From the IMG/VR virus record IMGVR_UViG_3300009548_000019, positions 1 to 37,758 of that record: a stretch of DNA of 37,758 nt. One strand, given 5' to 3'. The position numbers were made by a program, and so were the translations under genes. Shown piece after piece: positions 3,745-34,049 of the stretch. Below the pieces are notes generated by a model that was given only the letters and a program-made list of their open reading frames with translations, was not told where the DNA came from and made no database searches. The DNA is from a virus. Position 1 is the stretch's first letter, and each line of letters opens with the position of its first letter.

Positions 3745-3770
3745 GGGAGCCTGCAAAGGCTCCCTTTCTT
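3745..3770 (+). terminator. Rho-independent terminator of the plus-strand cassette
   Basis: GGGAGCC (3745-3751) and GGCTCCC (3758-3764) form a seven-pair stem with a six-base loop, followed by TTTCTT. It lies between convergent genes and overlaps the last codon of the leftward polyvalent-protein gene. Confidence 0.85.
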
Positions 3771-9700: not shown

Positions 9701-10248
9701 GCGGGTTCAACTTCTCCAAGCCGACCCATGAGCGGTATCGGTTGAGCCATCATGGTGGGTTTTCCGCCCGGCTGAGAAAGCGCACCAAGCGAGAGGTCTT
9801 GTAATCCATTCGTGGTGAGGTCATCAATCGCTTTCTCTGGAGTAGTCGTGCCGAGTTTGCCTAACGAAACCGGCTGTTTAGCCATCCCCGGAGCGAGCGC
9901 TCGCTTCGGTTCCGCTTCCACGCTATCCTTGACATAGTCGTATGTCTTGCGATAGATGTACTCGTATGGGTTCTGCTTTTTGAATTCCGCTGGGTTATCT
10001 CGGTAGAGAGCCTCTTTGTCGGCGTTCTCTTTTTCCGTAGCAGCAGCGTGGTCATTGTATTCTTTCTCTGCTGCGGGCGACTTCTGAGACTTGTTGATGA
10101 TGTGATGCCAAATTAAAGTTGAAGTATTTTCGTCGGGAATAGTTGCCGGAGGAGCAGTCTGAATAGAGGGAGTCCCGCCAGCACCCAGTTGGTCTTCTGG
10201 AGGAGCAGGCGGTGCACTGATTGTCGGCGTTGCGGTATCAGTTGCCAC
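3769..10248 (-). CDS. Giant polyvalent phage protein with radical-SAM, GNAT-like and metallopeptidase-like domains
   Basis: The protein has 2159 residues. The start is GTG with GGAG six bases upstream. In order: a disordered Pro/Ala-rich N-terminus; a GNAT-like fold around 330-430 with the QRKGIATKMY acetyl-CoA loop; a Rossmann-like region at about 600-745 resembling cobalamin-binding domains but lacking an evident DxHxxG; a radical-SAM domain with C752, C756 and C759 (CxxxCxxC) extending to about 985; a metallopeptidase-like domain with HEDGH at 1070-1074; two domains at about 1290-1420 and 1525-1680 of the sort seen in phage polyvalent proteins; and a large C-terminal domain (about 1740-2085). 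Such proteins are known to be packaged and injected to act early in infection. That role, and the substrate of each domain, are inferred here. It ends the long minus-strand gene array. Confidence 0.88.
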   Translation of the reverse strand: MATDTATPTISAPPAPPEDQLGAGGTPSIQTAPPATIPDENTSTLIWHHIINKSQKSPAAEKEYNDHAAATEKENADKEALYRDNPAEFKKQNPYEYIYRKTYDYVKDSVEAEPKRALAPGMAKQPVSLGKLGTTTPEKAIDDLTTNGLQDLSLGALSQPGGKPTMMAQPIPLMGRLGEVEPAETGGGLGPVKPVEGPETGFEMSREHVRTLKDLGYSNQAITHFNAGEVQDIIANKTPAPPEAAPAAETKPTAAAEKKPAGKEAVAAPEGAEISPHVTFKTVGGKEVEAPQGIERRDYTTRPFPSGQLTRVGRMADTTFNIIRQHEAEAQGGTVQQPTIKTEGPDWEHLQSAYVGGKKIGSLGYKTDVEGNARIYGAQVTPEMQRKGIATKMYLSAFDKARADGVLSISSDPTHVSPAATGVWRNLQASGLPIENITHPNGTPGFRLNLQPPETPATKNLPDWLKKDPLTTNETHATSVPLIPSPEGTAVGRVDKPDVPVAALSDSMAKVGGKMVAPPTPPKPTVNPETAPIAAVPMPKLERTQIQGGASTQPYPTYHEASNDQTNPWVRRSVDPANSASPTNENRLLMVQFASDLINGGLKTETKDEASQYYDKLYSGFRPGYARMQDFWEIPQWHGFVARNFPDADVYVVRDMEQAKKFLNDAKYGRVTFSALDVNKHLIRDLASNYSGHVDVGGYVAPETFSDLPNVKWHDSMESLTKDAGVEYKGGADYRHYAGSDVIPRLTMSKGCLHKCAFCTVEKQLVMPPKEDIEQQADAIAQLGSKLVYLNDKTFGQAKNYQDLAELNTRMKEKNPNFQGFVVQTTAAQMGKIPADWLAKSGIKYVELGIESYNDPILKSMHKPATENIINKAVDKLRQNNITLIPNILIGYPGETAETYANTLKFLQDNRDIISHANIYNLALYENTELGKSMTTASPDDFNENVLEKSFHKDPALHQQFAGDLYGAASKLLEATPTPLRQPTPEPQFHQALARRGEMPGQTVNLSPAYGETGGYIGGHIKMRLGGATEEEDNQRYAEALGVTHGPSWDDVFPAELLPEGNSPVSVVGHEDGHIVEGERVGWPMKNVVVNSAYHPTTSGGAAASTDFGPVFRELPGVTEIEPGRFKFSAQALKENWPKAVRVYLGGVVSQEVNYGIPIKVTEGGAGAGDAQNIVRWGKAMGLTDDEIGDHMIKTLAELRKDWQDPAINAIVKKMAAEREDGIPRTVLQTQERVDDLLNQVRAVWEGQKHGITEGTHAADGGVVPATEPGAAGGGKKVAAEPVQGRLFAQKGGDTSGLFAKAIKHYGTTEDIRKAGYIGLDGTMLDFSEGQEARTLDHGDIASIPGVQSAHNSNPRFDFVMKTGAMRVIDVPQSKWLGVMVSAEHPPTHAQLDRLTPLLEGGRDVEVDLIHPDWALPGGASAKDVHDMDGLQRVVRDAQKMHAEAQRRIANGKGTENADNGTVGGGFAVHSQADVARGESEVSGAAGQKSPEVAAEVSKTPEVKTAEIQKPPEPWHDQAANTMAKAGGFTIHPTTGKTPTEGYVVEIGPEQRKPEAGAEWPKPAGEPAGTFHPSPQDMQEFHGENKALFDKHPELHIGGYEGALEVSGVTRDKQAAIDLAHKLDQKSIYDIKNKKEIEIGGTGKTRQFPDYPMEQRIKDLGGETGGVISGAMEAKKGATTPIESPTVSTRVPSRTVKGETVEDHTNQSLISDMEAAKAAPGYIDKMVNRVKGVPGFVMPESADAQTAADAYIRHVADNIKFMYRKLTPAEIAYNEQWYPVGAHERGLEVAKTHDITPNQAWAVTSVESPMTDWNQNTALAERTVDIWKNQQNTKFTPEMQKAADEILSVPGMGKFAPLFKSLRGKTLAGLTSMPEKQAWWLRLYDEGHNPRSYQTWGPDGKPLGLAKNVDGSEASVGWSFQNHIQKAISILRDGSPENISKQLGYGHKVRNFYNNQAAPDDPRFLTIDTHAVAAGQLRPLAGKHPDVGSNFGTISNGPHGLSGTYPLHDAAYRLAAKELDIPIPSRLQSPVWAKIREVFTDDFKTKENINAVDAIWRQHNDGKITADEARNQIWDYAARWHDEVARGVRNPADQRELFTAGVRGEPAEGAAGRGDRGGTPVVDQTPETPEVSIFAKPAPKAKGNISLEFLKGGLKKLGK

Positions 10249-10819: not shown

Positions 10820-11437
10820 TTAGCTTACCTCCGAAGATGTTGGCGCGGCTGCTCCCATTGCTACTTCAAACTCGATGTTACCCTTCTCGTCCATATAGGC
10901 AGCAACGATACCACCCGGATCAACAATTTCACCCACCTCGTCGATTCCAAGCAGCGCCTTAATCACGGAATTGTGCATCGTCATCACAGTCGGAAGTGCA
11001 GCGTACGGTGTTGCGAGATACTGATAGATGACTTGCACTCGCAAATTTAACTGCGTGCCGCTCTCGCCGCCGGGAATCACGAGATCGGGATTCTCAATGT
11101 ACTTTTTGAACTCCTCAACTCGCTCGGGCGTCTTTTCTTTGCCTGTGTAATCAGCGACCATCCTCGGGCGCAAGTTCGGGTCATATGTGACGAAAGGGCA
11201 CGCCACGTTGCATGTATCCATGATGCACTGTGCGGTTTCTGCGGCACGAGGGATATCAGAGGAAACAACTCGTCCGATTTTCTCAAAGGACAACCATTGC
11301 GCGGCTTTCTCGGCGGACTCTCGACCTGTATTGGATAACTGGAAATCACCCCATCCATCCCAAACATTTGGCTGAGTGATTTCACCATGTCGTACGATAT
11401 AACCAATCAGTGTTCGACTTGGGTCAAGATTTAACAT
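10820..11437 (-). CDS. Histidine phosphatase superfamily protein
   Basis: The 205-residue protein shows the branch-1 histidine phosphatase (phosphoglycerate-mutase-like) signature: RHG at residues 16-18 with the phospho-acceptor H17, SSDIPRAAETA around R64, GGES at 123-126, and the second catalytic His at H155 in the MHNS context. The family removes phosphate from small molecules, proteins or nucleotides; the substrate here is unknown. The ATG overlaps the end of the upstream zinc-ribbon gene by 14 bases, so the two are probably coupled. A phosphatase of this kind is not a usual phage structural-module gene. Confidence 0.9.
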   Translation of the reverse strand: MLNLDPSRTLIGYIVRHGEITQPNVWDGWGDFQLSNTGRESAEKAAQWLSFEKIGRVVSSDIPRAAETAQCIMDTCNVACPFVTYDPNLRPRMVADYTGKEKTPERVEEFKKYIENPDLVIPGGESGTQLNLRVQVIYQYLATPYAALPTVMTMHNSVIKALLGIDEVGEIVDPGGIVAAYMDEKGNIEFEVAMGAAAPTSSEVS

Positions 11438-11705: not shown

Positions 11706-12833
11706 TCATTCCACCACGTATACGATTACGAATTCATTCGGGTCAGCGTAGTTGCACAAGATAAATGTGTCGTCCCCAATCAATTCCATGTAGATTTCAT
11801 CGGTGAAAACCCACACCGGCCATTCATTCCCGTAGCCGAACCAAAACCCGTGCCAATAGATTTCCTGTCGCCCGCCACGTACGCGCACGTCTCGGTTGCG
11901 GTCAACTCTACGATGGTCATCTCTGCCGAGTATCCGCCCATCACCCCGACCGCCATTACCGCGCCCGGGATTACCCGCACGCCCGCCATCACCGCGTCCC
12001 GGGTTCCCGTGAGAACCTCCGCGTCCGCCACGCTGAGCAACCATCAAATCTTCGCCGTTATTCGGGTCTTGAGTAATAGGAGTCACAACCGTCACAGGAA
12101 TCGGAACCTGTCTCGCTTTGTAGAGCAGTGCTGGGATATCACCTAGCTCTTTTTCAACCTTTGAGATGGGCTCAACTATGGATGGCATTGTCGCCCCGTC
12201 CCAACCCGCAATCACCAGCCCGATAATCTTACGGGTCTTCTCGCTTACAACCGAGGAGCCGCTAGCTCCGTGAGAGTCCATCTGGGTCACAAGAAAGAAC
12301 CCAGACAGGTCGTCGTGCTGCCCTGCCGCCGATATGACTGTTGAGGCAATCACACCTGAGGCGACTTGCTTGGCCGCGTCAAGACTAAAGTTTACATCAA
12401 CAGTTCTATCACCGATGCGATCCTGGCTTTCATTCCCCATTGCAATCGTGGGATATTTCACCGTTGAGGGCATGAAATACACCGCGTAATCCAATGGTTC
12501 TTCCATCGCAGATTTAAGCAGTGCCACAGGAACTTTGTCCGTGCCAAGATCGGTAGAGACCTTGAACGTTAGATCGGGAGGCAAATCTGGGTTCGCCCCT
12601 GTACAGTGCCCCGCCCCGATAAGCAGGTAGCCATCTTGGACTTTCTCGTAGGCGGTCACAGTGCAGAGGAAGCGGTCTTGCGTGCTGCCGCTGGAGCCGT
12701 AGAGAGCGAACGTGCTGGCATAGACCTTATGGTCAAAGCCCTTGGGCTCTTTGATGTTTGCGCAAGCAAGAGCGGGGGTCAAAAGAATTACCATTGCAAG
12801 AGCGATGCTACGGATTGCCTTGGATACCTTCAT
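11706..12833 (-). CDS. Secreted trypsin-like serine protease with RGG-rich tail
   Basis: The start is ATG 12833, with GGAGG four bases upstream, giving 375 residues. A signal peptide covers about residues 1-25. The chymotrypsin-fold triad is visible as H76 (GAGHC), D115 (LDYAV) and S191 (GASG, 189-192). After the protease domain come a Gly/Arg/Asn-rich repetitive region (about 270-320) and a C-terminal aromatic, acidic domain. The signal peptide implies action in the periplasm or outside the cell. A terminator separates it from the capsid genes, so expression depends on readthrough or an unseen promoter. It may be an accessory exoprotein or a virion or envelope-processing enzyme. Confidence 0.88.
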   Translation of the reverse strand: MKVSKAIRSIALAMVILLTPALACANIKEPKGFDHKVYASTFALYGSSGSTQDRFLCTVTAYEKVQDGYLLIGAGHCTGANPDLPPDLTFKVSTDLGTDKVPVALLKSAMEEPLDYAVYFMPSTVKYPTIAMGNESQDRIGDRTVDVNFSLDAAKQVASGVIASTVISAAGQHDDLSGFFLVTQMDSHGASGSSVVSEKTRKIIGLVIAGWDGATMPSIVEPISKVEKELGDIPALLYKARQVPIPVTVVTPITQDPNNGEDLMVAQRGGRGGSHGNPGRGDGGRAGNPGRGNGGRGDGRILGRDDHRRVDRNRDVRVRGGRQEIYWHGFWFGYGNEWPVWVFTDEIYMELIGDDTFILCNYADPNEFVIVYVVE

Positions 12834-12845
12834 AAAACCTCCGTT

Positions 12846-12882
12846 AAAACAAAAAGCCCGAAGCATATCGCAGCCTCGGGCT
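12846..12882 (-). terminator. Rho-independent terminator after the capsid genes
   Basis: On the minus strand AGCCCGA (12876-12882) pairs with TCGGGCT (12855-12861), and the stem is followed directly by TTTTTGTTTT. It lies between the decoration-like gene and the protease gene and would end or weaken leftward late transcription. Confidence 0.82.
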
Positions 12883-14015: not shown

Positions 14016-15011
14016 TTACACTGCCGACACCTCACACCTGACCCTTCTGAAACCCGGTGTCCCGTTCGTGTTCGGTCTCGCAACGACTCCGAGGAACCAG
14101 TCGTAGCTCACGATTGCTCGTGTCTGCAACATCGGGTTGCTCAGGTCAATGTCATTGTCGCCGAAGGTCTTGACGTTCACCTTGAAGCTGGGGTTCCGAG
14201 GAACTCGGTTGCCCAGCAACTCGGAGGCCATCATTGCTTCACGGCCAACGACATACGTTGCGTATCCAGTCTTACCCGTTGAGGGGTAATTGGCGTACGT
14301 CGGCACCGTCTGCGTGCGGATAATGCGAACTCCGCTCCACTCCAGCACCGTGTAGCCGCGAGTCATGTCCGACTTCAGGACAGACGCCCCGGCTTCGGAA
14401 CGCTTCAGCACGTCAACGGCGGACCCGGCAGAGTTGTCCGACATGAAATCGTAAACAACGTACGGGTGCATCGCGCTCGTGTAGAGCCCGCCATCACGAC
14501 CCGGAACCGCGTTGCCCATCAACTGGGACTCGCACTTACGGACTGTGTTGGACAGCATGAACTCGTTGTCGAGCAAGTCAATGGCTGCGGACGACTGCGC
14601 CACGACGGCTGCTTCGAAACCGTTAATCGCAATCAGGTTGCTCGTGAGAGCGCCCCGATACGAAAGGTTGCGGCTGGCATCCATCGTGATGTCCGCAAGG
14701 AACATCTGTTGAGCGACGTTTGAAATGCCAATCCAGTCGCCGTATTCATCAGCGAACGCATCGCTGAAGACTTGGGTCAACTGGAGGCTGGGACCCGGGA
14801 TACCTTCGGACAGGTCGTAGGTCGCAGCAGCGAACGGCTGTTGGCCGTAGAACTGGAGCGTCCGACCAGACCGGCGAGGCAGAGGCCGGAAGTCGCACAA
14901 TTCCTCAAGAAATGGAGTATTGAACTGCCATTCCAAAATCGCAGTGCGGTCATACGCAATCTGCGGGAAGGCAGCAAGGGTGGTGCTTTGAACGCCCGGG
15001 GGCAGAATCAT
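14016..15011 (-). CDS. Major capsid protein, N4-gp56 type
   Basis: The 331-residue protein has the layout of the N4-gp56 family of HK97-fold capsid proteins: an early RSGRTLQFY strand, a LSEGIPGP loop, then QLTQVFSDAFADEYGDWIGISN matching the conserved turn-and-strand region, and a C-terminal domain ending in a structural beta segment. GAGAGAGG precedes the ATG. Directly upstream are the probable promoter motif (15026-15053) and the scaffold-like gene, the usual gene order. Confidence 0.85.
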   Translation of the reverse strand: MILPPGVQSTTLAAFPQIAYDRTAILEWQFNTPFLEELCDFRPLPRRSGRTLQFYGQQPFAAATYDLSEGIPGPSLQLTQVFSDAFADEYGDWIGISNVAQQMFLADITMDASRNLSYRGALTSNLIAINGFEAAVVAQSSAAIDLLDNEFMLSNTVRKCESQLMGNAVPGRDGGLYTSAMHPYVVYDFMSDNSAGSAVDVLKRSEAGASVLKSDMTRGYTVLEWSGVRIIRTQTVPTYANYPSTGKTGYATYVVGREAMMASELLGNRVPRNPSFKVNVKTFGDNDIDLSNPMLQTRAIVSYDWFLGVVARPNTNGTPGFRRVRCEVSAV

Positions 15012-16303: not shown

Positions 16304-16738
16304 TTACTTCTCGGTCGAGTCGTACGAACCCGCAATCCGATTATCCGCCATCTGGTCAAACGTCTCTAAAACTCGCTGCCGAACGTAGTCCCCAGTTTCA
16401 ACGACTTCAGCAGGTGTCTTCTCCAGCGTAGCTTCTGCCGCCGTTCTCGCCTTCTCCAGATTCTCTCTGTCCTCAGCGATGCCAACAGCGATAGCATCAT
16501 TGATTGCAGAGATGAGCAAAGCGTGATGCTCTTTCGCCGCTTGAGCACGGCACTTCAACATCATAACTTGCTGAGGGTCCCACCCGGGAAAGTCCGTGCA
16601 AATTGCCGTTGCCCCATCAACTAAGTCTTGAGAGATACGAAGGATTTCAAGAAACCCCGGATGGGCTCGCAGAGCCAGTAGACGATTTGCCCTCTCAATG
16701 TTCCGAGAGGTAGTAGGAACGTACGGTGTATCGCTCAT
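16304..16738 (-). CDS. Helical structural-module protein of unknown function (144 aa)
   Basis: The start is ATG 16738, with GGAG upstream and an ATGA overlap with the preceding nuclease gene. The protein is mostly helical and acidic, with a central region of about 90 residues containing single Cys residues and many Ala/Glu. No family is recognised. It lies between portal and scaffold genes, so a head-assembly or adaptor role is possible. The nuclease gene immediately upstream may have inserted between it and the portal. Confidence 0.75.
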   Translation of the reverse strand: MSDTPYVPTTSRNIERANRLLALRAHPGFLEILRISQDLVDGATAICTDFPGWDPQQVMMLKCRAQAAKEHHALLISAINDAIAVGIAEDRENLEKARTAAEATLEKTPAEVVETGDYVRQRVLETFDQMADNRIAGSYDSTEK

Positions 16739-17352
16739 TTTGTGCTCCGTTTCTTTTGGGCAGCCCGCCGCGCAGCCGACCATGGAATTCCTTTGTGCGA
16801 TTTTTGTAGATTTTCGCGGTGCGTGTCTGAAAACTTTTTACCCTTCCAAAACAGATGTTTTCCTTCTAGTTTTTGTGCTGCACTCTGGTGCAATTTCCAT
16901 AAATCTCGATCTGCATAATGTAAATGGGCATTTTGCAGTGATTCTAAACTGTGTTTGCAGCCCAAGGCATTCTTAAGTCCCTTACAGTTTTGATTTCCAC
17001 GACTCGCCCGCCCCATCTTTTTTCTTGCTTCTAAAGTATGAGGTCCTGTGAATCCTTCGCCCCCGTCACAGATGTTATACCCGACATCGGGGTGTTGCGT
17101 TTTCAAAACCCGAATAAAATGCTTTTCCAACTCGTCAAGTTCTTGCCGGGATTCAACCCCCGAAACCAAGGGATGAATACTCCAAGTCTCGCGGGGATGC
17201 AATCGCATCGCTGCGTAAAGATGCGACCGTTTCCCTGAGTACCTATTCGCATCGTGATACTTCTGTGAAAGGTACTTCCCTAAATCAGTCTTCTTGTGCT
17301 GTCCAACATAACACTTCAAAGTCTCACGGCAAACAATCACATAGATGAACAT
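16735..17352 (-). CDS. GIY-YIG homing endonuclease with NUMOD3-like repeats
   Basis: The start is ATG 17352, with GGAG upstream, giving 205 residues. The N-terminal catalytic half shows FIYVIV and YVGQHKK as the GIY-YIG pair, and ELEKHFIRVLKT followed by NICDGGEG as the Glu-containing helix and loop. The C-terminal half has NUMOD3-like DNA-binding segments (LEARKKMGRASRGN; a SDTHRENLQKSHKG unit). It is free-standing between the portal and head genes. Confidence 0.9.
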   Translation of the reverse strand: MFIYVIVCRETLKCYVGQHKKTDLGKYLSQKYHDANRYSGKRSHLYAAMRLHPRETWSIHPLVSGVESRQELDELEKHFIRVLKTQHPDVGYNICDGGEGFTGPHTLEARKKMGRASRGNQNCKGLKNALGCKHSLESLQNAHLHYADRDLWKLHQSAAQKLEGKHLFWKGKKFSDTHRENLQKSHKGIPWSAARRAAQKKRSTK

Positions 17353-17361
17353 TTGACTCTC

Positions 17362-17389
17362 CTCACTTATGGCAGGAATAGTCAAAAAG
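17362..17389 (-). promoter_or_regulatory. Intergenic motif copy 3 (before the GIY-YIG gene)
   Basis: Same fixed-spacing consensus, with the least conserved flank of the six. It lies ten bases from the nuclease start codon and may originally have served the gene now downstream of the nuclease. Confidence 0.65.
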
Positions 17390-17397
17390 TTCGGGGG

Positions 17398-19641
17398 TCA
17401 TCCAGAAAATGCACTCTTATCCATGTTGGCGAAGGCTCCCTTCGCTGCACGATCAAGACCTTGTTCCTCCGGTGTTGCAGCCATTGCTTTATCCGCAGCC
17501 TGCTGTTGTTTCTGCAACGCCATATCGTTTGCTTGGTCCGTGGTCTTCCCATGCTCATTCAAAGCATGTTTACCAGTTTCAATGAGCATGCGATTCTCGG
17601 CTTGGTTGTTATCAATGTCCTTCTTGACGGCACCTTGAGCCTGCATCATCGCCACTTTACCCTGTGATAACGCAGCCTGCGTATCAGCCATCGCTCGCTT
17701 CTTGTCTTCTTCATCCATCGGCACCACAATGTGTTCCTTGTACGGTGCGCCAAACGCATCAAACATCGCAGTGAACATGCCGTTCACGTCCAACTTCAAA
17801 GCCTGCACAGCCAGCATGTCCTTGGTTCCGGGGGCAGAAAGGAACGTTTCCAAAATACCCATGGTCTTATTCACGGCTTCGCGGGCAATAAGTCGGGTGC
17901 CCGCCGAGATTTCAACTCGGTACGTGCCGTTGAGAATATCCAACGGAGTTTGCTTGAATGCCTCACCCAATTCCTGTGAAAGCATCGCTCGGATTTGTGA
18001 CGGCTTCAATTTTTGGTTGTTCTCAATGCAGAACTCCAAGAACGGAACGAAGACTTGCTCCGAAACTACGTCCACGAGGTCTTGCAGCTTGATGTTCTCG
18101 CCGCCGGTGATTGCTTCAACGCCGCCGGGTGTCCGCATGTCACCCGATTTGCCCGGATTTGACCCGAGCATACCCGGTCCTGCACCAGAAATAGAAGCTG
18201 CCCACGCTTTCATCTGCGCGATAACCGCCAAAGGCTCGTTTGCATCAACGGCGTTGCGAGTCATCGGTTCAATCTTGCCCTCCCGGTCGGATTTGAAGAT
18301 TTTGCCCGGGAAAATCCACTGCGCCTGCGCCGTATTGTTCGCACCGGCGGGAGAAGTGTATGTTCCCATCAAATTCAAGTTCATGTCGTCCAAATAAGCG
18401 TTCACAACGCCTTGACAGACCCGTTGAAAGTCGGTCAACCAGTATGCAACGCCGTATCCGTGCAGGGAGTCGGGTGCATTGCGGAAACAGAAGCCCAAAA
18501 ATGGCGGACGACCGAATTTATGCGTTTCGTTGAGCAGAACGTACTCTTTTTGCAAAATAACCGCGTGACGCGAGCCTGTCCAATAATCAAAGCATTCAAA
18601 TTTCCTCGCCAACGGGTCGTGAGCGGTACGCTCGGTGTAATTTTCGGGATACGCCTTCTGCGGCGTAGTCGTTTGCTGAAAAACTGGGTTTCCGGTGTTT
18701 GACCCGAGCGTTTCTAATGGGTTTGTCGGTGACTGGTCCTGCATTTGCGGTGTCGTCAGCGCCACAAGTTGCTCCCGACTCGGAATATTCCAACCTTGGG
18801 TGTTACGAAGTTCATCAAGTTGGTATCCAGTCAGGTAAATGATGCGTCCAAACCAGTCCGCAACACGTGGGTCACCCCGGCGAAGGTCAGGAGCGTACCG
18901 AGCACGCCGAACAGGCACGTGTTCCAGTATCGGCATGTTAATTTCGCACGTCCCGATTGTCTTTTCCTCAATATCATCCTCGTCCGTGGGCTGCGGAACA
19001 ACTACAAGAGCGCCGTTCACCACCATGGACTTGTCATGGAACCGTTGAACCTTCTTAATGATGTTCTGTTTGGTAGTTTTCCAGCCGTAGTGAGCAACAC
19101 CGAGACCGTAGAACAGCCCGTCGTACGTGATTTCACGCATTTCGGTCTTAGCGGACACACCTTTGAAGCCGCACGTCTTCAATTCGGCGTTTAGGAGGGC
19201 TTGTTGAGCCTCGGCGCACGGCATCGGCGTGCCGGAAGTCGCATCAACCTTGAAAACTTGATATCCGCCGAACAAAGTCTGATTCACAACGCTGTGAATG
19301 CTGTAAAATTGCTCAGCGACGAGCGGAATTCCGAGGTGAGACCGAAATTGTTCGCTTCCTTTCCACTTCATCGGGCTAACCCACGCCTGAAGCATGATTT
19401 CTGCCATGTTCCAGCGCCCAATTAAGCCTCTCGTGGCAATAAAACTCTCGGATTCTTCACGGTTGAGGTTTGCTTCCTTCAACATTGACACATCAGAACG
19501 ACGTTGGTCAATGAAAGCAACCTCCGTAGGCATTATTGGGAGGGCAGTTTCACCATACGGAATAGCACCGGGAAGGTCCAGAATTTTAATCTGACCGAGG
19601 TCGGCGAAGTGAGTGACCGCTTTGATGTCGTTTTCTGACAT
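17398..19641 (-). CDS. Portal protein
   Basis: The 747-residue protein matches podovirus portals in size. It has an N-terminal wing region, a central region with conserved Trp/Tyr-rich strands (YDGLFYGLGVAHYGWK; FECFDYWTGSRHA), a stem and clip around YGVAYWLTDFQRVCQGVVNAYLDD, and a long helical, Gln-rich C-terminal tail resembling a barrel or core-contact region. It follows the large terminase directly and has AAGGAA before the ATG. The role as the DNA-translocating dodecamer follows from the family. Confidence 0.87.
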   Translation of the reverse strand: MSENDIKAVTHFADLGQIKILDLPGAIPYGETALPIMPTEVAFIDQRRSDVSMLKEANLNREESESFIATRGLIGRWNMAEIMLQAWVSPMKWKGSEQFRSHLGIPLVAEQFYSIHSVVNQTLFGGYQVFKVDATSGTPMPCAEAQQALLNAELKTCGFKGVSAKTEMREITYDGLFYGLGVAHYGWKTTKQNIIKKVQRFHDKSMVVNGALVVVPQPTDEDDIEEKTIGTCEINMPILEHVPVRRARYAPDLRRGDPRVADWFGRIIYLTGYQLDELRNTQGWNIPSREQLVALTTPQMQDQSPTNPLETLGSNTGNPVFQQTTTPQKAYPENYTERTAHDPLARKFECFDYWTGSRHAVILQKEYVLLNETHKFGRPPFLGFCFRNAPDSLHGYGVAYWLTDFQRVCQGVVNAYLDDMNLNLMGTYTSPAGANNTAQAQWIFPGKIFKSDREGKIEPMTRNAVDANEPLAVIAQMKAWAASISGAGPGMLGSNPGKSGDMRTPGGVEAITGGENIKLQDLVDVVSEQVFVPFLEFCIENNQKLKPSQIRAMLSQELGEAFKQTPLDILNGTYRVEISAGTRLIAREAVNKTMGILETFLSAPGTKDMLAVQALKLDVNGMFTAMFDAFGAPYKEHIVVPMDEEDKKRAMADTQAALSQGKVAMMQAQGAVKKDIDNNQAENRMLIETGKHALNEHGKTTDQANDMALQKQQQAADKAMAATPEEQGLDRAAKGAFANMDKSAFSG

Positions 19642-19724: not shown

Positions 19725-21647
19725 TTATTTCCACCTGTCGTCCTCGTCGCTCCCGTAACTGCCTGCCGGGCGGCTATCGGGCTCTTCTACAGTCTGGGCG
19801 GCGTTCAGTTTGCGAAGCCAATTCATCACGGTCGGAACAGGTGGAGGCTCCTGTAACTGAAATCCAGTCGGAGCCTGAACTACTTGCCCCGCGCAGTCTG
19901 CAAAATCGTCATGACGCCCCAACTTCGGCCAGCGCACTAGCTGTTTGACAAGGTTATCGTACGCCGCTGCGTAGTCCTTGCCGCCCATATTCCTGTAAAA
20001 CCACAGCCGCCCGTGCTCGTTGGGATTTGCTCCCGCCAGAAAGCCTTTGACGGTGCCGATACGGATTTTTTTAGCGTCCGCCGTACGTGAACACTTCAAC
20101 CACTGGACAGGCAAGTTCTCAATGTGGCGCTTTTTCGCTTCGGATTCAATAAGCCTTTGGTATGCGTCCCAGCCATTGAACTGCTCATAGAACACATCTC
20201 GGGGTCTGTGTGTGAGTAAAACATCAACCGTGATCTTCGCTACCTCCCCGGAGTCCCAGTTTCCAAAGAGACAGTCGTAGATGAAAATCTGCCCCTGAAA
20301 TAACCGACACACGAATATCACAGAAAAGTCCCGGTCTTCCTGTCCAACGTACGCCAAGTCGCCGACGACGAATGTGTATGACTGGCTATACCCCGGGATC
20401 GCGTTTATGTCAAACAGCGTTTGGGCTCCGATGAGTGCATCCGTGAATACCTGCGTCTGAGCGGCGATAGGGCGATTCTCGTACTGATTCGCAAAGAACT
20501 CCTCACCGTATTGAATCTTGAAACTTTCCAACCCGCCCAAAGTATGACCAATTGCCCGACCGTCATGCGCTCGGGTCTCAGGAAACAGAAGACCTCGATC
20601 CCCGGTCGCAACAAACCCGGGGCATTTGCACGCAAGACCCATGCACAGCGGATGAAGAATATTCGTCGCCGTGTCGTGATAGACCTGTGGATGATTGCAG
20701 TTCGCGCACGCATAACTCCAGCAATCTTGAATAGAGAATGCCCATACAGTGTGTCCTAACTGTTTCTCCTCTTCTCGGGCGTTCTCTTGAATACGCTCGT
20801 AGGTATCCCCCCACGAATACCGAGTTCCAGTCATCACGATGTAGCCTGTGGGTTCAAGCATCGGGCAGATATCTATGTAATCTTGATAGCATTTCTCCAG
20901 AGCCGGAATGCTTTTGTAGTTCGTCTCGTTCACGAGGTCATCAATGTAGATGATGTCAAAGTGAGCCCCGGCTTTGACGCACTTCGCCGTGCTGATAGAA
21001 AACGTAGGCTCGGGAAAAGTTTCATTCGTGCGGCAGGGCACTGTAAACTCGTGCTGATTGCCCATCTTGGCATTCACGTCTCCCCAGTTGTTTGACTTTT
21101 GATCCAATCGCCCCACAAAACAGAACTCAGGAAAGAGATACGCAAAGGTCTCGGTGGGATTTTCAAATATCCGCTTTATTTGTTTCAACCGCCGCATACC
21201 GAGTTCTTCGCCGCCGGTGAGGAAGCATATGCGAACGTTCGGATAGTTCAAGATGGTCTGAACGATATCAACAACAACAGCGGAAGACTTGAAAGTACCG
21301 CGAGGCCACAGAATCATCATCTTCTTGGTGAGGGATTCCAAGTCGGAGAGAACAAAACCCTCCCCGGGACGCTTCTGAACAAAGCGGCTAAATAGAATGC
21401 TGTGGGGGTTTGACTGGAAATCCCAGTCCGCAGATATCGGCACAAGTTTACCTGTCTCCGGGTGCTCAACCCAATCACTCAGGTAGAGATGGCTCTTCAT
21501 GCATTTGAATCGTCCTCGGAACCACTTATCCAGTTTCTCTTCCGGGGCGCTATCGTACCATTTCCGACGCTCGGGGGGCAGAATGTTAGCGTCAAAATCT
21601 GCTCGGTATTGTGCAAGTGCGATGGGGTCTACGTAGATGTCTATCAT
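19725..21647 (-). CDS. terL: Terminase large subunit (ATPase/nuclease)
   Basis: The start is ATG 21647, with AGGAG upstream, giving 640 residues. The ATPase shows a Walker A-type WPRGTFKSS (about 114-122), a Walker B DIIYIDD (231-237) and a coupling region MTGTRYSW. The nuclease domain starts with VVGDLAYVGQEDRDF, where D430 would be a metal ligand. An unusual Cys cluster (C314, C317, C335, C340, C342) with a nearby His lies between the two domains, like a zinc knuckle. The enzyme packages DNA into the head through the portal, encoded directly downstream. Confidence 0.93.
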   Translation of the reverse strand: MIDIYVDPIALAQYRADFDANILPPERRKWYDSAPEEKLDKWFRGRFKCMKSHLYLSDWVEHPETGKLVPISADWDFQSNPHSILFSRFVQKRPGEGFVLSDLESLTKKMMILWPRGTFKSSAVVVDIVQTILNYPNVRICFLTGGEELGMRRLKQIKRIFENPTETFAYLFPEFCFVGRLDQKSNNWGDVNAKMGNQHEFTVPCRTNETFPEPTFSISTAKCVKAGAHFDIIYIDDLVNETNYKSIPALEKCYQDYIDICPMLEPTGYIVMTGTRYSWGDTYERIQENAREEEKQLGHTVWAFSIQDCWSYACANCNHPQVYHDTATNILHPLCMGLACKCPGFVATGDRGLLFPETRAHDGRAIGHTLGGLESFKIQYGEEFFANQYENRPIAAQTQVFTDALIGAQTLFDINAIPGYSQSYTFVVGDLAYVGQEDRDFSVIFVCRLFQGQIFIYDCLFGNWDSGEVAKITVDVLLTHRPRDVFYEQFNGWDAYQRLIESEAKKRHIENLPVQWLKCSRTADAKKIRIGTVKGFLAGANPNEHGRLWFYRNMGGKDYAAAYDNLVKQLVRWPKLGRHDDFADCAGQVVQAPTGFQLQEPPPVPTVMNWLRKLNAAQTVEEPDSRPAGSYGSDEDDRWK

Positions 21648-21663
21648 GGTAGCTGCTCCTACC

Positions 21664-23370
21664 TTATCGGCTTGTGCCTGTCCTTTGACCGGTTCCCATA
21701 ATGTTGGTGGAACCTGAAATCTCTCGTCCCCCGAACCAAATCGTCCCGAGGACGGATGGATTTCCACCACTCACAATGAAGGTTGAAGTGAAATTCACGC
21801 TTGTGACGGCGTTCGGATTCCCGCCGCCTAGTGTTTCAGTTGCATCGGTTGGCGAGAACGTGTAGCGTAAGAGCGTCGGCGTAACCGTATACGTGCCATC
21901 CGCAAGCCCGCTGATTGTGTACCCGCCATCCGCCGCCGAGGTCACACTACCTGAGGACGTGCCAGTGTAGGATACCGTCACACCTGCCGTTCCGACGTTT
22001 CCTGAAATTGAATCCCCGACCGCACCACCACTGAAGTTCTTCACTGTTGAGTTTGATATAGTGGGGTCGGCTTCCAATATCAATCCCGTAAGTCCACGGG
22101 TGGTGACCGAACTATCAATGCCTGACTGCAACAGGACGCCGTTCTGCCACACATACCAACCTGATCCGACAACCGCTACTTTGAAAATGTCCCCGTTGGT
22201 GACAGTTAGGGAACTCGTCCAAATTTCTCCCTCTTCGGTGTCGTTATAGAACGCCACGATGCCAGTACATGGGGCTGGACCGTTGCCATTTAAGTTGACG
22301 GCAAGATCATAGCCTGTCGGCGTGCTTCGGTCTAACGCCGTGTCCCGAACAAGCAGGTCAAAATCTGAACTTGGGTCAGCGAAGTTAACGATGGTGATTT
22401 CAGCCCAACAATCGGTCGGCCATGTGATGCCGGTATAAAATTCCCCGCTCCCGTTCGTCGGCAATATCACTTGAGGTTCGCAGGCATCACTCACGATCTG
22501 TAAGCCGTTGTCGCCAACCGTGTCCAGTTGCCATGGCGGCGATGCAAGCGGACTTTCAGGCGCTCGGTGAAATGTATCAGACGCCAGCGTTGTGAAAACC
22601 ATTCCCGCTGTCGGTTGGGCGCTGATTGTCGCATGCCCGGTGATGGATGCAGAAATTGGATTCAAGGTTCCAATCAAAGCGCTGATAGTTGCATGCCCGC
22701 TGAGGGACGCGGAGATTGGATTAAGTACTACTGCTTGAAATCCGACCGACGCGATTACCCAGTCTGTACTTCCACTTTGATTCATGAATTCAGTAATACC
22801 CGTTTGCGCGGATGAGAAAAGAATGTGTTGAGCACCCATATCCCCGCTGATGGCGTTTGAAGCATCCAGTGTGTGACTGCCGTCCTGTGCGGTATACGTT
22901 ATGCCTGTAAAATCGTTTGCCGTCATGGTCAGAACGATTTCATCCGTACCGACAGTGTTAAATGATGCTGTGGTGGGGGTGCTAGAACTGCTGCGGCTCG
23001 CACCAAAAGGATTCACATCAAAAACAGGAGTGCCGCCAGAAATTGGGATATCCCAAACGCCGAGCGTGTTGAAACCCGGAGTCCCAGTAGCAGTCCAAAG
23101 CACGGTAACGTGATTCGCAGCGTTGGTGCCAGTGCTAATGCAATACGCCACGACTGTCTTCCAACCAAAAGTACCTTGCAACGTTTGGACTGTGTAATTG
23201 TTGCCGCCAATGTCATCCGAAAAAGCCGCCGCCGTTACACCTGTGCCATTGATTTGAGCTATCGCAACGATCAAATCGCCCGTGGTTGTATTTATAATAG
23301 CAGTGGAGGTTTTGCTTGATGAAGGTGCTGCCCCGGCTGCGGTGAATACTGGGGAACCGAAGATACTCAT
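21664..23370 (-). CDS. Modular tail-fibre or receptor-binding-type structural protein
   Basis: The 568-residue protein has an N-terminal beta domain (about 1-215) resembling the one in the 230- and 905-residue proteins at 26573 and 27272. Two tandem copies of a SGHATISA repeat follow at about 220-250, then a concanavalin/LamG-like domain (about 258-450), then a carboxypeptidase-regulatory-like (Ig-type) domain marked by GGYTISGLADGTYTV. AAGGTGA precedes the ATG. The mosaic of beta-sandwich modules suits a virion surface or fibre protein. Confidence 0.8.
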   Translation of the reverse strand: MSIFGSPVFTAAGAAPSSSKTSTAIINTTTGDLIVAIAQINGTGVTAAAFSDDIGGNNYTVQTLQGTFGWKTVVAYCISTGTNAANHVTVLWTATGTPGFNTLGVWDIPISGGTPVFDVNPFGASRSSSSTPTTASFNTVGTDEIVLTMTANDFTGITYTAQDGSHTLDASNAISGDMGAQHILFSSAQTGITEFMNQSGSTDWVIASVGFQAVVLNPISASLSGHATISALIGTLNPISASITGHATISAQPTAGMVFTTLASDTFHRAPESPLASPPWQLDTVGDNGLQIVSDACEPQVILPTNGSGEFYTGITWPTDCWAEITIVNFADPSSDFDLLVRDTALDRSTPTGYDLAVNLNGNGPAPCTGIVAFYNDTEEGEIWTSSLTVTNGDIFKVAVVGSGWYVWQNGVLLQSGIDSSVTTRGLTGLILEADPTISNSTVKNFSGGAVGDSISGNVGTAGVTVSYTGTSSGSVTSAADGGYTISGLADGTYTVTPTLLRYTFSPTDATETLGGGNPNAVTSVNFTSTFIVSGGNPSVLGTIWFGGREISGSTNIMGTGQRTGTSR

Positions 23371-29990: not shown

Positions 29991-30536
29991 TTATCCTCGC
30001 TTGTTCGCTAATTTCTTTTGTGCCCACCACGCTGTTACCCGAGCCGCTGTTTTGTCTCGGCGTGCGAGATGGCTTGCGGACATCTTTGCTTTAATCTCCG
30101 GCGTCATTTCGTACAACTTCCGCCCAGTTAAGGTCGCTGATATTTTGTCTCTCCACGTAATCTGACGACCGAGATGACTCTCACGGAGTGCTCGCTTAGT
30201 GGCGTCAGACTGGGCATGACCGGGTTTCCCTTTCTTCGCTACACTCATCCGTCGTTTGGCAGCATCCGTATGCCGAAGTCCCACAAGTCCTTCGCCGCCG
30301 TTTGTGAAGTTATGCAAACACCCGGTGCCCAAATCCCGACGCCCGAACAAGTCAATCAAAGCAGTCTCAGACTCAAATGCTTCTGCTTCGCTCAGCATCG
30401 GAAACACCAAAATCCGAGACTTGTCTACAGGCGGATATAGACGTTTGTGTCGAACAAACGCCCTATTTCCAAATCCCTTTCCGGCGTAGTAGGGAGACCC
30501 ATCACATCGAAGCCATAGATATGAATAAAAGCCCAT
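29991..30536 (-). CDS. GIY-YIG-type homing endonuclease
   Basis: The 181-residue protein starts with FYSYLWL and PYYAGKGFGNRA, the GIY-YIG pair in degenerate form. ESETALIDLFGRRDLGTG and NFTNGGEGLVG follow as the Glu helix and loop, then NUMOD3-like segments (SDATKRALRESHLGR). The ATG shares a base with the previous stop (TAATG). It sits between a small basic gene and the large fibre gene. Confidence 0.87.
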   Translation of the reverse strand: MGFYSYLWLRCDGSPYYAGKGFGNRAFVRHKRLYPPVDKSRILVFPMLSEAEAFESETALIDLFGRRDLGTGCLHNFTNGGEGLVGLRHTDAAKRRMSVAKKGKPGHAQSDATKRALRESHLGRQITWRDKISATLTGRKLYEMTPEIKAKMSASHLARRDKTAARVTAWWAQKKLANKRG

Positions 30537-30724: not shown

Positions 30725-31115
30725 AAGCACTTCCCCTTTGATGCGGGCAGAAGCCCCAAATCCCAATCGCCATATTGCAGTTGTGGCACATCACTCTGAA
30801 ACCCTCAGGCCAATTGTGCCGCTTCAGCCACTTATAAAAATTGACACCGCCTTTTAACTTGACCATTCGGCGATGTTGGTTTCCATTCCCAGCCTCATGG
30901 TCAATCGCCAAAAACTCTACGATGATTTCCCCGCAGCAGGCGCATTCCCCGCCGTAGTGATAAATCGCTTCGAGTTTAATCGCTCGATTGCGACGACGGC
31001 AGCCCTCGTTCGTTTGGGCTCTATGACTATACCCATATGCCAACCGTTTATCTCGATGTTTCAAATAACACCGATGGTTAGCTGCTCTTTGAATCTCAAC
31101 TGACCGGCTTGGCAT
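30714..31115 (-). CDS. HNH homing endonuclease
   Basis: The 133-residue protein has a basic N-terminus and the HNH core: CACCGE, LAIDHEAGNGNQHRR, FYKWLKRHNWPEGFRVMCHNCN and GFCPHQ. This is a family common in free-standing phage nuclease genes. GAGGACG precedes the ATG, which overlaps the previous gene by 20 bases. Confidence 0.92.
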   Translation of the reverse strand: MPSRSVEIQRAANHRCYLKHRDKRLAYGYSHRAQTNEGCRRRNRAIKLEAIYHYGGECACCGEIIVEFLAIDHEAGNGNQHRRMVKLKGGVNFYKWLKRHNWPEGFRVMCHNCNMAIGIWGFCPHQRGSAYGK

Positions 31116-31407
31116 CGTCCTCGCTCTTCAACGGGGGTCGAACGTACCGACAGCACCCGTGCTCCATATCAATCTTGACAACAGGACGCCCATCAATCAA
31201 AACCAGTTTATCTTGCAACAATTCATCCCCAACCACCTTCGGGTGGATACAGAAAGGCTCGTCGCTTTTGGTCTTATGGATGCAGTCTTCACAGTGATAG
31301 GGTCCGCCAGTGGCATACCCCGAGCAAGGCGTGCCGGTTTCGTCCAGAATGGAGCCAAGCCGAGGCTGTCCAAGCGCTTCCGTGCCCGGAATGAGGGAAT
31401 CAGACAT
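31096..31407 (-). CDS. Cys-rich putative zinc-binding protein (103 aa)
   Basis: An acidic protein with CEDC, a His-rich spacer with FCIHP, and a CC pair near VKIDMEHGCC, suggesting a small metal-binding fold. GAGAGAGG precedes the ATG. It follows motif copy 6 and lies between the small terminase and an HNH gene. Similar Cys-rich small proteins occur near terminase genes in some phages; the function is unknown. Confidence 0.8.
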   Translation of the reverse strand: MSDSLIPGTEALGQPRLGSILDETGTPCSGYATGGPYHCEDCIHKTKSDEPFCIHPKVVGDELLQDKLVLIDGRPVVKIDMEHGCCRYVRPPLKSEDDAKPVS

Positions 31408-31447: not shown

Positions 31448-31939
31448 TTAGAAGTTTACTTTGCCGAATTTGTCGGGTTTAGGCTCTTTCACGCCGGGGG
31501 GCGTCTTGGGCTTCTTTTTGCTCTCTTCAAGCACGTCCTGAGGGATGATTCCGGGGGATTGGTGGTTCGGAATTCGGTTCGCAAGACCGAGAACATCACA
31601 TTTCAGCTTTAGCGCATACAGTTGAGCCATCGTCAGTTTCTTGTTGTTGATGGCTCGGTCAATCGCCACGAGGAGTTCCTCGGTCGGCGTGGCTTGGAAG
31701 TGCCGATTGAGCACCGCTATGATTCGGATGTTCCCCATGATGGCGTACGACATGATGCGAGCTACTTCCAGCGTTTTGCAGTTGTACGCCGTCCGCACAG
31801 CCTGCACCGCATCGTAGTGCCCATCTGCGAGCCCGCCCGCAACATAAGTCGAGACAAATAGCTGCTGCTTCTGGGTCAACTTCAGATACTCCGAAGTCGC
31901 CTGCAATTCGTCTAACGGCATTTTTGATTTGTCGCTCAT
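31448..31939 (-). CDS. terS: Terminase small subunit
   Basis: The start is ATG 31939, inside the GroES stop (ATGA), with GGAGAAG upstream; 163 residues. The N-terminal helix-turn-helix region reads LTQKQQLFVSTYVAGG and AVRTAYNCK, typical of small terminases that recognise packaging sites. Helices at about 60-115 would oligomerise the ring, and a Lys/Pro-rich tail ends the protein. It lies far from the large terminase, separated by the fibre genes. Confidence 0.82.
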   Translation of the reverse strand: MSDKSKMPLDELQATSEYLKLTQKQQLFVSTYVAGGLADGHYDAVQAVRTAYNCKTLEVARIMSYAIMGNIRIIAVLNRHFQATPTEELLVAIDRAINNKKLTMAQLYALKLKCDVLGLANRIPNHQSPGIIPQDVLEESKKKPKTPPGVKEPKPDKFGKVNF

Positions 31940-32229
31940 ACGACTTCTCCCTCTGTTTTTTCCCGAACCCAACCTTCAATCGCATCTTCTCTTAGAATCC
32001 TGAACTCAACGCCCTCAATGGCTACCATCTTCCCGGCGTACGGACCATAGAGCACAATCTCTCTCGGCTTCACCCGCTCCTGTGAGAGCGGCCCCACGGA
32101 GACCACTGTGCCATATGCCATGTCTTTCTCTCTAACGTTCCCGGGCAACTCGATGTCGTCGATGGTTGTCAAGCGAGCGCTGTCAATCACAAGAATGCGG
32201 TCTTGTGCCGGTTCAATAAACTTAGCCAT
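31936..32229 (-). CDS. groES: Phage GroES-type co-chaperonin
   Basis: The 97-residue protein equals E. coli GroES in length. It starts at ATG 32229, overlapping the GroEL stop by eight bases. The first strand has DRILVIDSAR, then a mobile-loop region around DDIELPGN (where bacterial GroES has GGIVL), then GTVVSVGP, KPREIVLYGPYAG and a final strand EFRILREDAIEGWV. The overlap suggests coupled translation with GroEL to keep the two proteins in proportion. Confidence 0.9.
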   Translation of the reverse strand: MAKFIEPAQDRILVIDSARLTTIDDIELPGNVREKDMAYGTVVSVGPLSQERVKPREIVLYGPYAGKMVAIEGVEFRILREDAIEGWVREKTEGEVV

Positions 32230-33817
32230 TAATTTTCTCCGTGAATTTTTCCGCAACACACGCACCCATAGTGAGGATGCTGCACGATACTGCCGCCGCG
32301 TTTCGCAGCGATTCCACCACAACTTTTACGGGGTCAATGATGCCCGTCTCTAACAGGTTTTCAAAATTTCCTGTCAAGGCATTGTATCCCCGGTCAGGAG
32401 TCGCCAGAATTTGGTTCAACATCAACTGCCGGTCAATGCCTGCGTTCTCCGCAATCTGCTGCACCACGGACTGACACGCTTCAAGAACAACCCGAAGCCC
32501 CGCAGCCTCTTCATCTGCATCATCAATACCCAGCGTGTAAATTGCCGGTCGAGCCTGCATCAAAGCCATCCCACCGCCTGCAACGACGCCGGATTCAATC
32601 GCCGCTCTCGCTGCCGACATTGCGTCAATGACCCGGTCTCGCTTCTCTTCCATCTCGGTGACCGTAACGCCGCCAACCTTGATGACTGTGATGCCGCCAA
32701 GCAGGGCAGCAAGCCGACGCTTCAGGACTACCTTCTCGCCGGGAGCCGCCGTCTCCATCGCCGTGCGAATGGAATCCACTCGCCCTTTAAGAATCGCTTG
32801 GTCTCCTTTGCCTTCAAGAATCTGCGTCTTGCTCATCGTCGTCACAACTTTGCGAGCGGAACCCAACTGAGCGACTTTGATGCTTTCAATCTTCAGCCCC
32901 ATGTCCTCGGTGTACGCCACGCCGCCGGTCAATGCAGCGATATCGCCCATCAAATCCTTTCGGGTCTGACCATATGCTTCCATGCGTACCGCAATCAACG
33001 GCAACGCTAATCGGATTTTATTGTTAATCAGAACAGCCAGTGCTTCTTGCTCGTACCCGCCTGCAATGATAATCAGCGGGGTTCCTGATTCTTTTATCTG
33101 TGCGAGAATCGGCACCAGCGACTTCGCCGTCGCAATCACGCCTTCCCACAGAAGTATCTTGCAGTTGAGAAGTTCGGCTTTCACTTCCTCGGGATGCGTG
33201 ATGAACGCTGCCGAAATCAAATTTGATTTGTCCAACTCCAAGCCTGCAACAGTCTCAACATACGTCTCGGACGTAGATGAAGGCTCAGCAGTCACCACAC
33301 CGTCTCGCCCTGCCTTCTCAACCGCACCCGCTACGAGTTGACCGATAGAGGTATCTCCATGAGCCGACACTGTCGCTACTTGAAACAGTTGCTTCCCCTC
33401 AACCCGTACCGCCATGTCCTGAAGCTGGTCAATCACAGCGGTCGTAGCTTTGTGAATTCCCCGCTCCATTGCCATCGGATTCGCGCCGTTGGAAATTGCG
33501 TGAAAGCCCGCATGTATCATTGACTGTGCGATCACGATAGCGGCGGTGGTTCCATCTCCGACTGCGTTATCAGTCTTCTGTGCAGCCTCACGAATAAGGT
33601 CTGCACCCATTTGCTCGGTTGGGTCTGACGGGTCGGCATAATTGGAAACTGTAACTCCATCCCTCGTAACTTTTGGCGATTGTCCAAGCGCCCGCTGACC
33701 GAGGATGCAATTGCGCCCTCGGGGTCCCTCGGTAATCTTCACCGCGTCGGCGAGGAAATCTACCCCTCGCATGAGCGCCTGTCGTGCGTCAGGACCGTGT
33801 CTGATATCTTTGCTCAT
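32222..33817 (-). CDS. groEL: Phage GroEL-type chaperonin
   Basis: The 531-residue group I chaperonin has GPRGRN (31-36), TRDGVTV with D53, VGDGTT with D88, an apical domain, VVAGGG, and GIIDPVKVVVESLRNAA near the C-terminus. The conserved Asp before AARAAIESG is retained, so ATPase function looks intact. The usual APGFG segment of the apical domain reads MEAYG, and the C-terminal GGM tail is absent (the protein ends EKING). The gene overlaps the upstream small gene by 29 bases. It would fold phage proteins, plausibly capsid or giant proteins. Confidence 0.96.
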   Translation of the reverse strand: MSKDIRHGPDARQALMRGVDFLADAVKITEGPRGRNCILGQRALGQSPKVTRDGVTVSNYADPSDPTEQMGADLIREAAQKTDNAVGDGTTAAIVIAQSMIHAGFHAISNGANPMAMERGIHKATTAVIDQLQDMAVRVEGKQLFQVATVSAHGDTSIGQLVAGAVEKAGRDGVVTAEPSSTSETYVETVAGLELDKSNLISAAFITHPEEVKAELLNCKILLWEGVIATAKSLVPILAQIKESGTPLIIIAGGYEQEALAVLINNKIRLALPLIAVRMEAYGQTRKDLMGDIAALTGGVAYTEDMGLKIESIKVAQLGSARKVVTTMSKTQILEGKGDQAILKGRVDSIRTAMETAAPGEKVVLKRRLAALLGGITVIKVGGVTVTEMEEKRDRVIDAMSAARAAIESGVVAGGGMALMQARPAIYTLGIDDADEEAAGLRVVLEACQSVVQQIAENAGIDRQLMLNQILATPDRGYNALTGNFENLLETGIIDPVKVVVESLRNAAAVSCSILTMGACVAEKFTEKING

Positions 33818-34049
33818 CGTTACACCTCACGCCCTTTCCCAACTCTTTCGGTGCTGGTCCCATGTTCACAAACTCATACGTCATCACTCCGTGCGGAGTT
33901 GATTCGTCGATCTCCATGCGGATGTGAACGTGGCACCGAGCGCAGTTAACATCAACCCAATGCCACGTATGATTGCACGGCAGCCCCATTTGCTCGCACT
34001 GCTCGTGCCTCTTTTCCTTGTGCCCAAACCATCGGCAGAGTAGACTCAT
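33789..34049 (-). CDS. Small Cys/His-rich protein (86 aa)
   Basis: It starts MSLLCRWFGHKEKRHEQC, followed by CNHTWHW and CARCH, forming a plausible zinc site, then an acidic tail. The ATG overlaps the previous stop (ATGA). Its 3' end overlaps the start of GroEL. The function is not recognised. Confidence 0.75.
   Translation of the reverse strand: MSLLCRWFGHKEKRHEQCEQMGLPCNHTWHWVDVNCARCHVHIRMEIDESTPHGVMTYEFVNMGPAPKELGKGVRCNDEQRYQTRS

Follow-up and report, generated by a model that had tools for sequence, protein, structure and literature searches.

A divergent GroEL–GroES pair encoded beside a probable small terminase gene in an uncultured virus lineage

The window, that is, the whole stretch of DNA analysed here, comprises 37,758 bases of the IMG/VR virus record IMGVR_UViG_3300009548_000019, which is classed as linear and is probably a fragment. 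Its minus strand carries, according to the ORF list, groEL (33817–32222), groES (32229–31936) and a probable small-terminase gene (31939–31448), encoding proteins of 531, 97 and 163 aa. The groEL stop codon (32224–32222) lies beyond the groES ATG at 32229, giving an overlap of 8 bases; the groES stop codon (31938–31936) and the terminase ATG at 31939 overlap by 4 bases (ATGA). These coordinates bear out the overlaps described in an earlier, sequence-only reading. The same reading proposed an operon with translational coupling; this is only a possibility, as Shine–Dalgarno-like runs (GAGG, GGAG and GGGAG) precede all three starts and inserted genes are found in relatives. A short Cys/His-rich ORF upstream (33789–34049, minus strand) overlaps the groEL start by 29 bases and has no PHROG match; downstream of the terminase gene is a Cys-rich ORF (31096–31407, minus strand) that is kept in relatives. 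Genes for the terminase large subunit TerL (19725–21770; phrog_38, 1e-34), a portal or head–tail adaptor protein (17398–19641; phrog_332, 2e-14; phrog_1216, 3e-8) and a major capsid protein of 331 aa (14016–15011; phrog_1357, 7e-15) were assigned with PHROGs and lie downstream of the chaperonin genes on the same strand. A gene of the histidine phosphatase superfamily (10820–11437, minus strand; PF00300, 1e-23) adjoins the head genes.

GroEL matches Pfam Cpn60 (PF00118, 6.5e-56, 190.5 bits against a cut-off of 34.3) over profile positions 1–487 of 490, as well as PHROG 5725, ‘chaperonin groEL’ (7e-120); GroES matches Pfam Cpn10 (PF00166, 6e-10, 39.5 bits against a cut-off of 21.1). On the basis of Pfam and PHROGs, the identities of both proteins are certain, and the residue map and trees characterise GroEL as a divergent group I chaperonin. 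The ATP-hydrolysis residues D52, D87 and D398 (E. coli numbering) are kept in all 16 GroELs of the virus clade; D52 and D87 are the residues D53 and D88 of the window protein, whose retention had been noted before. Most of the nucleotide pocket is conserved, with K51 replaced by R and T91 by A or C. The residue map also confirms MEAYG in place of the APGFG motif and the lack of a GGM tail. The motif reads [ML][ED]AYG in 13 of 13 close virus GroELs, and three divergent members have TGA[FY] instead; within this region, F281 becomes Y, retaining an aromatic side chain, and P279 becomes acidic. The window GroEL ends in EKFTEKING, and a GGM C-terminal tail, which is common but not universal in group I chaperonins, is absent in every member of the clade.

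The apical groove, formed in E. coli by Y199/Y203/F204/L234/L237/L259/V263/V264, reads L/A/F/V/L/L/I/N in the window protein. Six of these eight positions are hydrophobic or conservative; the exceptions are Y203 (A or V) and V264 (N or K), which in E. coli GroEL contribute to the binding of substrate and of GroES. All 13 close GroELs share Y199L, Y203A/V and V264N/K, and F204, L237 and L259 are kept; the assignment of Y199 is approximate, a one-residue insertion adjoining the site. Among the close members, three residue pairs that form salt bridges between GroEL subunits, R197–E386, D83–K327 and R58–E209, read K–V/L, N–M and N–E. The three divergent virus GroELs retain E or D at position 386, so the loss of E386 arose within the virus lineage. 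The ring–ring contact positions are degenerate in the residue map. The earlier suggestion of altered dynamics or clients thus gains support from groove and salt-bridge substitutions found across the clade, but it is still an inference. Because the partners in the three salt-bridge pairs are gone, the cooperativity of this GroEL may be changed. All three genes (groEL, groES and the terminase gene) are under purifying selection; for GroEL, dN is 0.18–0.26 against a dS that is 2.6 or saturated.

GroES retains the mobile-loop core G-I-x-[L/M]-P, with the tripeptide I-E-L in the window; in alignments of the relatives, I is invariant and L or M occurs in nearly all. Its roof β-hairpin is shorter than that of E. 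coli GroES by 8–11 residues. Loss of the roof loop was considered as a hallmark shared with T4 gp31, but this reading is weakened by the short roof loops of the GroES of Elemovirus, DAC23 and partly Bacteroides; the feature is not specific to the lineage. A predicted model of GroES had a pLDDT of 49.5, too poor for use.

The third gene had been read as the small terminase, an assignment that is graded here as probable. Weak but recurrent profile matches favour it: of 11 relatives, 10 match phrog_51 (best 4e-5) and five match Pfam Terminase_2 (best 1e-3). In an AlphaFold model, the N-terminal half is helical and confidently predicted (pLDDT about 90); a Foldseek comparison of the model with solved structures in the PDB returned no fold match at E ≤ 0.001, and a profile search of PDB sequences returned nothing. 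The 163-aa product is referred to below as TerS.

A first set of relatives was obtained by GroEL-based scans of IMG/VR, which yielded one essentially identical contig and 12 further contigs with a GroEL 65–76% identical to that of the window. All have the order GroEL, GroES, TerS. The 8-base groEL/groES overlap recurs in four of them (L012, L017, L019 and L021); in others, the two genes are separated by 160–620 bases, within which lies either an endonuclease-like gene or a small ORF. One such ORF, of about 68 aa (MDRxGT..NPI...PRRLDANV), is conserved and overlaps the groES start by 8 bases; it was located between the two genes at L016:7573–7802, L018:7591–8029, L020:7582–7811 and L022:6847–7076. 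An Rfam search for a structured RNA in the spacer of some relatives found none; the spacer contains a small ORF. Genes for homing endonucleases, some of them of the GIY-YIG type, occur at scattered sites in the lineage (in the window at 16735–17385 and 29991–30536, both on the minus strand); some relatives have them inserted into the cassette, either between groEL and groES or ahead of TerS, after groES (L004:9592–10230, L005:9873–10400).

A GroEL-independent search was made to avoid bias, using the capsid protein as a query; it gave 59 IMG/VR loci, and 42 whole records were scanned. GroEL is present in 17 of the 42 records, GroES in the same 17 and TerS in 15 of those; no record among the 42 has TerS without both chaperonins. 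The other 25 records have no match to GroEL, GroES or TerS. Judged by where the capsid gene lies in them, the larger chaperonin-less records (G033, G004 and G015) stop short of the expected locus. Coverage of the locus was checked by hand for these three and a few others among the 25, and records of this kind appear uninformative. As far as hand-checked, no relative sequenced across the locus lacks the GroEL–GroES pair. Fifteen of the 17 records have it in the packaging and head region, immediately before TerS or with one inserted gene between. The two divergent records G034 and G035 have the Cys-rich gene directly after GroES, and TerS was not found in them; since they keep the pair without TerS, the link between GroEL and GroES is stronger than that to TerS. 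The idea of the three genes as an invariant coupled unit can be set aside, because small or homing-endonuclease-like ORFs intervene in relatives and TerS is missing from these two records. Five contigs are 96–100 kb long, and in three of them the distance from GroEL to the capsid gene (14–17 kb) is sensible only across the contig ends. Contig sizes and these distances suggest circularly permuted genomes of about 97–100 kb, and the lineage is one of uncultured tailed phages whose genomes probably measure about 100 kb.

Nearly all bacteria have a GroEL–GroES operon, and such an operon could enter a viral record as a recent host contaminant or be picked up in assembly. For the present locus, we regard this explanation as improbable in the extreme. 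In IQ-TREE trees (LG+C20) that sampled Proteobacteria, Firmicutes and Bacteroidota, the 16 virus GroELs form a single clade with support of 100/97 and a long stem, outside all sampled bacterial groups. Compared with the bacterial and catalogued phage GroELs that were found, they are only about 40% identical, and 43% at most. The gene order, EL then ES, is opposite to the usual bacterial one, and the 17 GroEL-bearing records were retrieved through the capsid gene. The tree and the capsid-anchored co-occurrence thus exclude a host contaminant: judged from these comparisons, the GroEL is viral, and the earlier claim of a genuine phage GroEL/GroES pair, not nested deep inside one bacterial clade, holds. 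A weak join of the virus clade with phage phi38:1 may reflect long-branch attraction. A genome scan for the host gave a sole GroEL match, the ordinary bacterial GroEL of Xenophilus. Among isolated phages, the acidobacterial podovirus Tunturi_3 (97.6 kb) has the most similar capsid and terminase proteins (23–27%), but it has no GroEL; an acidobacterial host for the lineage is only a guess.

The major capsid protein is mostly 83–100% identical (range 74–100%) across the 59 IMG/VR loci, while in relatives GroEL is 65–76%, TerL 54–65% and TerS about 47–65% identical. Capsid dS is about 1, against near-saturated values in other genes; the conservation reflects either very strong constraint or gene exchange. 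Both the capsid protein and a giant polyvalent protein had been proposed as clients. The former is plausible: at about 36 kDa it fits a GroEL-type cage, and it is probably the likeliest client. The giant protein (3769–10248, minus strand; 2159 aa) is unlikely to be a cage client, because at about 235 kDa it is too large for whole encapsulation; the capsid protein gp23 of T4 (about 56 kDa) is already above the GroEL–GroES size limit (PMC6318259). Domains recognised in the giant protein are Radical SAM (residues 748–907, 8e-14) and DUF7178, along with a weak match to GNAT acetyltransferases. An ORF at 11706–12866 (minus strand) weakly matches a trypsin-like peptidase (PF13365, 9e-5); since several relatives have a homologue immediately ahead of groEL, this gene may be mobile or duplicated.

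Taken together, we consider it likely that the phage uses the pair as its own ATP-driven chaperonin in virion morphogenesis, the presumed main client being the capsid protein. In favour are the conserved catalytic residues and mobile loop, the shared occurrence of the two genes, the purifying selection on GroEL, the head and packaging genes that follow on the same strand, and the precedent of gp31 in folding the T4 capsid protein. Late in infection, a single message would probably serve for translation of groEL, groES and, in most members, TerS together with the packaging and head genes. The subunits of GroEL would assemble into one or more heptameric rings, whose modified apical groove could bind non-native virion proteins; binding of ATP (D52, D87, D398) would lift the apical domains. 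The phage GroES would then dock by its mobile loop, its thin, roof-shortened lid sealing the chamber, and the client would fold and leave after ATP hydrolysis. A bolder form of this proposal, in which the chaperonin is private and obligate, has its allostery between subunits rewired by the loss of three salt bridges and is dedicated to one extremely conserved capsid protein, seems unlikely; such a chaperonin would perhaps act non-cooperatively or as a single ring.

The pairing of the phage GroES with the phage GroEL is itself deduced from sequence and could be weak, because the changes of V264 to N or K and of Y203 to A or V weaken binding positions. The altered groove would suit an arrangement without a dedicated pair, in which, during infection, the GroEL of the phage forms mixtures with that of the host or takes its place and has a separate holdase role, and the phage co-chaperonin binds to host GroEL in the manner of gp31. 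The mobile-loop core I-x-[L/M], recognised by host GroELs, is retained, and the GroELs of phages EL, OBP and AR9 act without a co-chaperonin (PMC7185714, PMC9598537). However, these chaperonins are distant (AR9, 20.6% identity), and the occurrence of GroEL and GroES together in 17 of 17 records, usually adjacent, speaks against such an arrangement, which we rate as improbable. A non-structural role, for example folding of host or phage enzymes under stress with an incidental terminase neighbourhood, is also improbable. The EL-phage chaperonin acts on an endolysin (PMC9598537), and the linkage to TerS is not absolute, as G034 and G035 demonstrate; the location of the pair in the packaging and head region in 15 of 17 records, with at most one gene inserted before TerS, nevertheless argues against such a role.

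To our knowledge, the phage chaperonins characterised so far are of two kinds: solitary co-chaperonins such as gp31, which take over the GroEL of the host, and lone GroEL-like rings, as in EL, OBP and AR9. A divergent, co-inherited GroEL and GroES, fixed across a phage lineage and located beside packaging genes, makes it possible to test the requirements of a chaperonin dedicated to capsid folding, and the clade-wide loss of known salt-bridge positions is a direct natural experiment in GroEL allostery. Like T4 gp31, which lacks roof loops and is required for folding of gp23 (PMC6318259), the lineage has a phage co-chaperonin, but the mobile loop of gp31 is longer and its partner is host GroEL, whereas the lineage also has its own GroEL. 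The type found in EL, OBP and AR9 is likewise phage-encoded but co-chaperonin-free (PMC9598537), at about 22% identity to GroEL, and is not matched here: GroES is linked and GroEL is 38.7% identical to that of E. coli. The E. coli pair is similar in whole-length Cpn60 and Cpn10 likeness, catalytic aspartates and mobile-loop core; the phage proteins differ in the altered groove, missing salt-bridge partners, lack of a GGM tail, short GroES roof and reversed gene order.

Some phages carry both GroEL and GroES (PMC7185714), whole marine virus lineages have GroEL (PMC5332604), and soil viral GroELs have been detected as transcripts and peptides (PMC8390657). The earlier reading described phage GroEL homologues as known mainly from large phages; pairs, at least, are not restricted to very large phages, being read in phages of 60–180 kb (Elemovirus, phi38:1, immuto and DAC). 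Elemovirus (Flavobacterium phages, 60 kb) has the same EL-then-ES order with a 1-base overlap and a short GroES of 83 aa in a phage of medium size; unlike the present lineage, its GroEL (31% identical) keeps E386 and has a PPSIG motif, and the pair is flanked by opposite-strand genes, not by TerS. Cellulophaga phage phi38:1 (72.5 kb) and Flavobacterium phage immuto (160 kb) also combine a chaperonin and a co-chaperonin, but GroES precedes GroEL, GroEL is 35–37% identical and the genes lie near DNA polymerase genes instead of packaging genes. Since these three carry annotated pairs and DAC23 (179 kb) has a GroES-like ORF before GroEL, the pairing is not new. At the level of sequence, what is distinctive here is the divergence of GroEL, the consistent presence of the pair in the lineage, its position beside TerS and the clade-wide set of substitutions.
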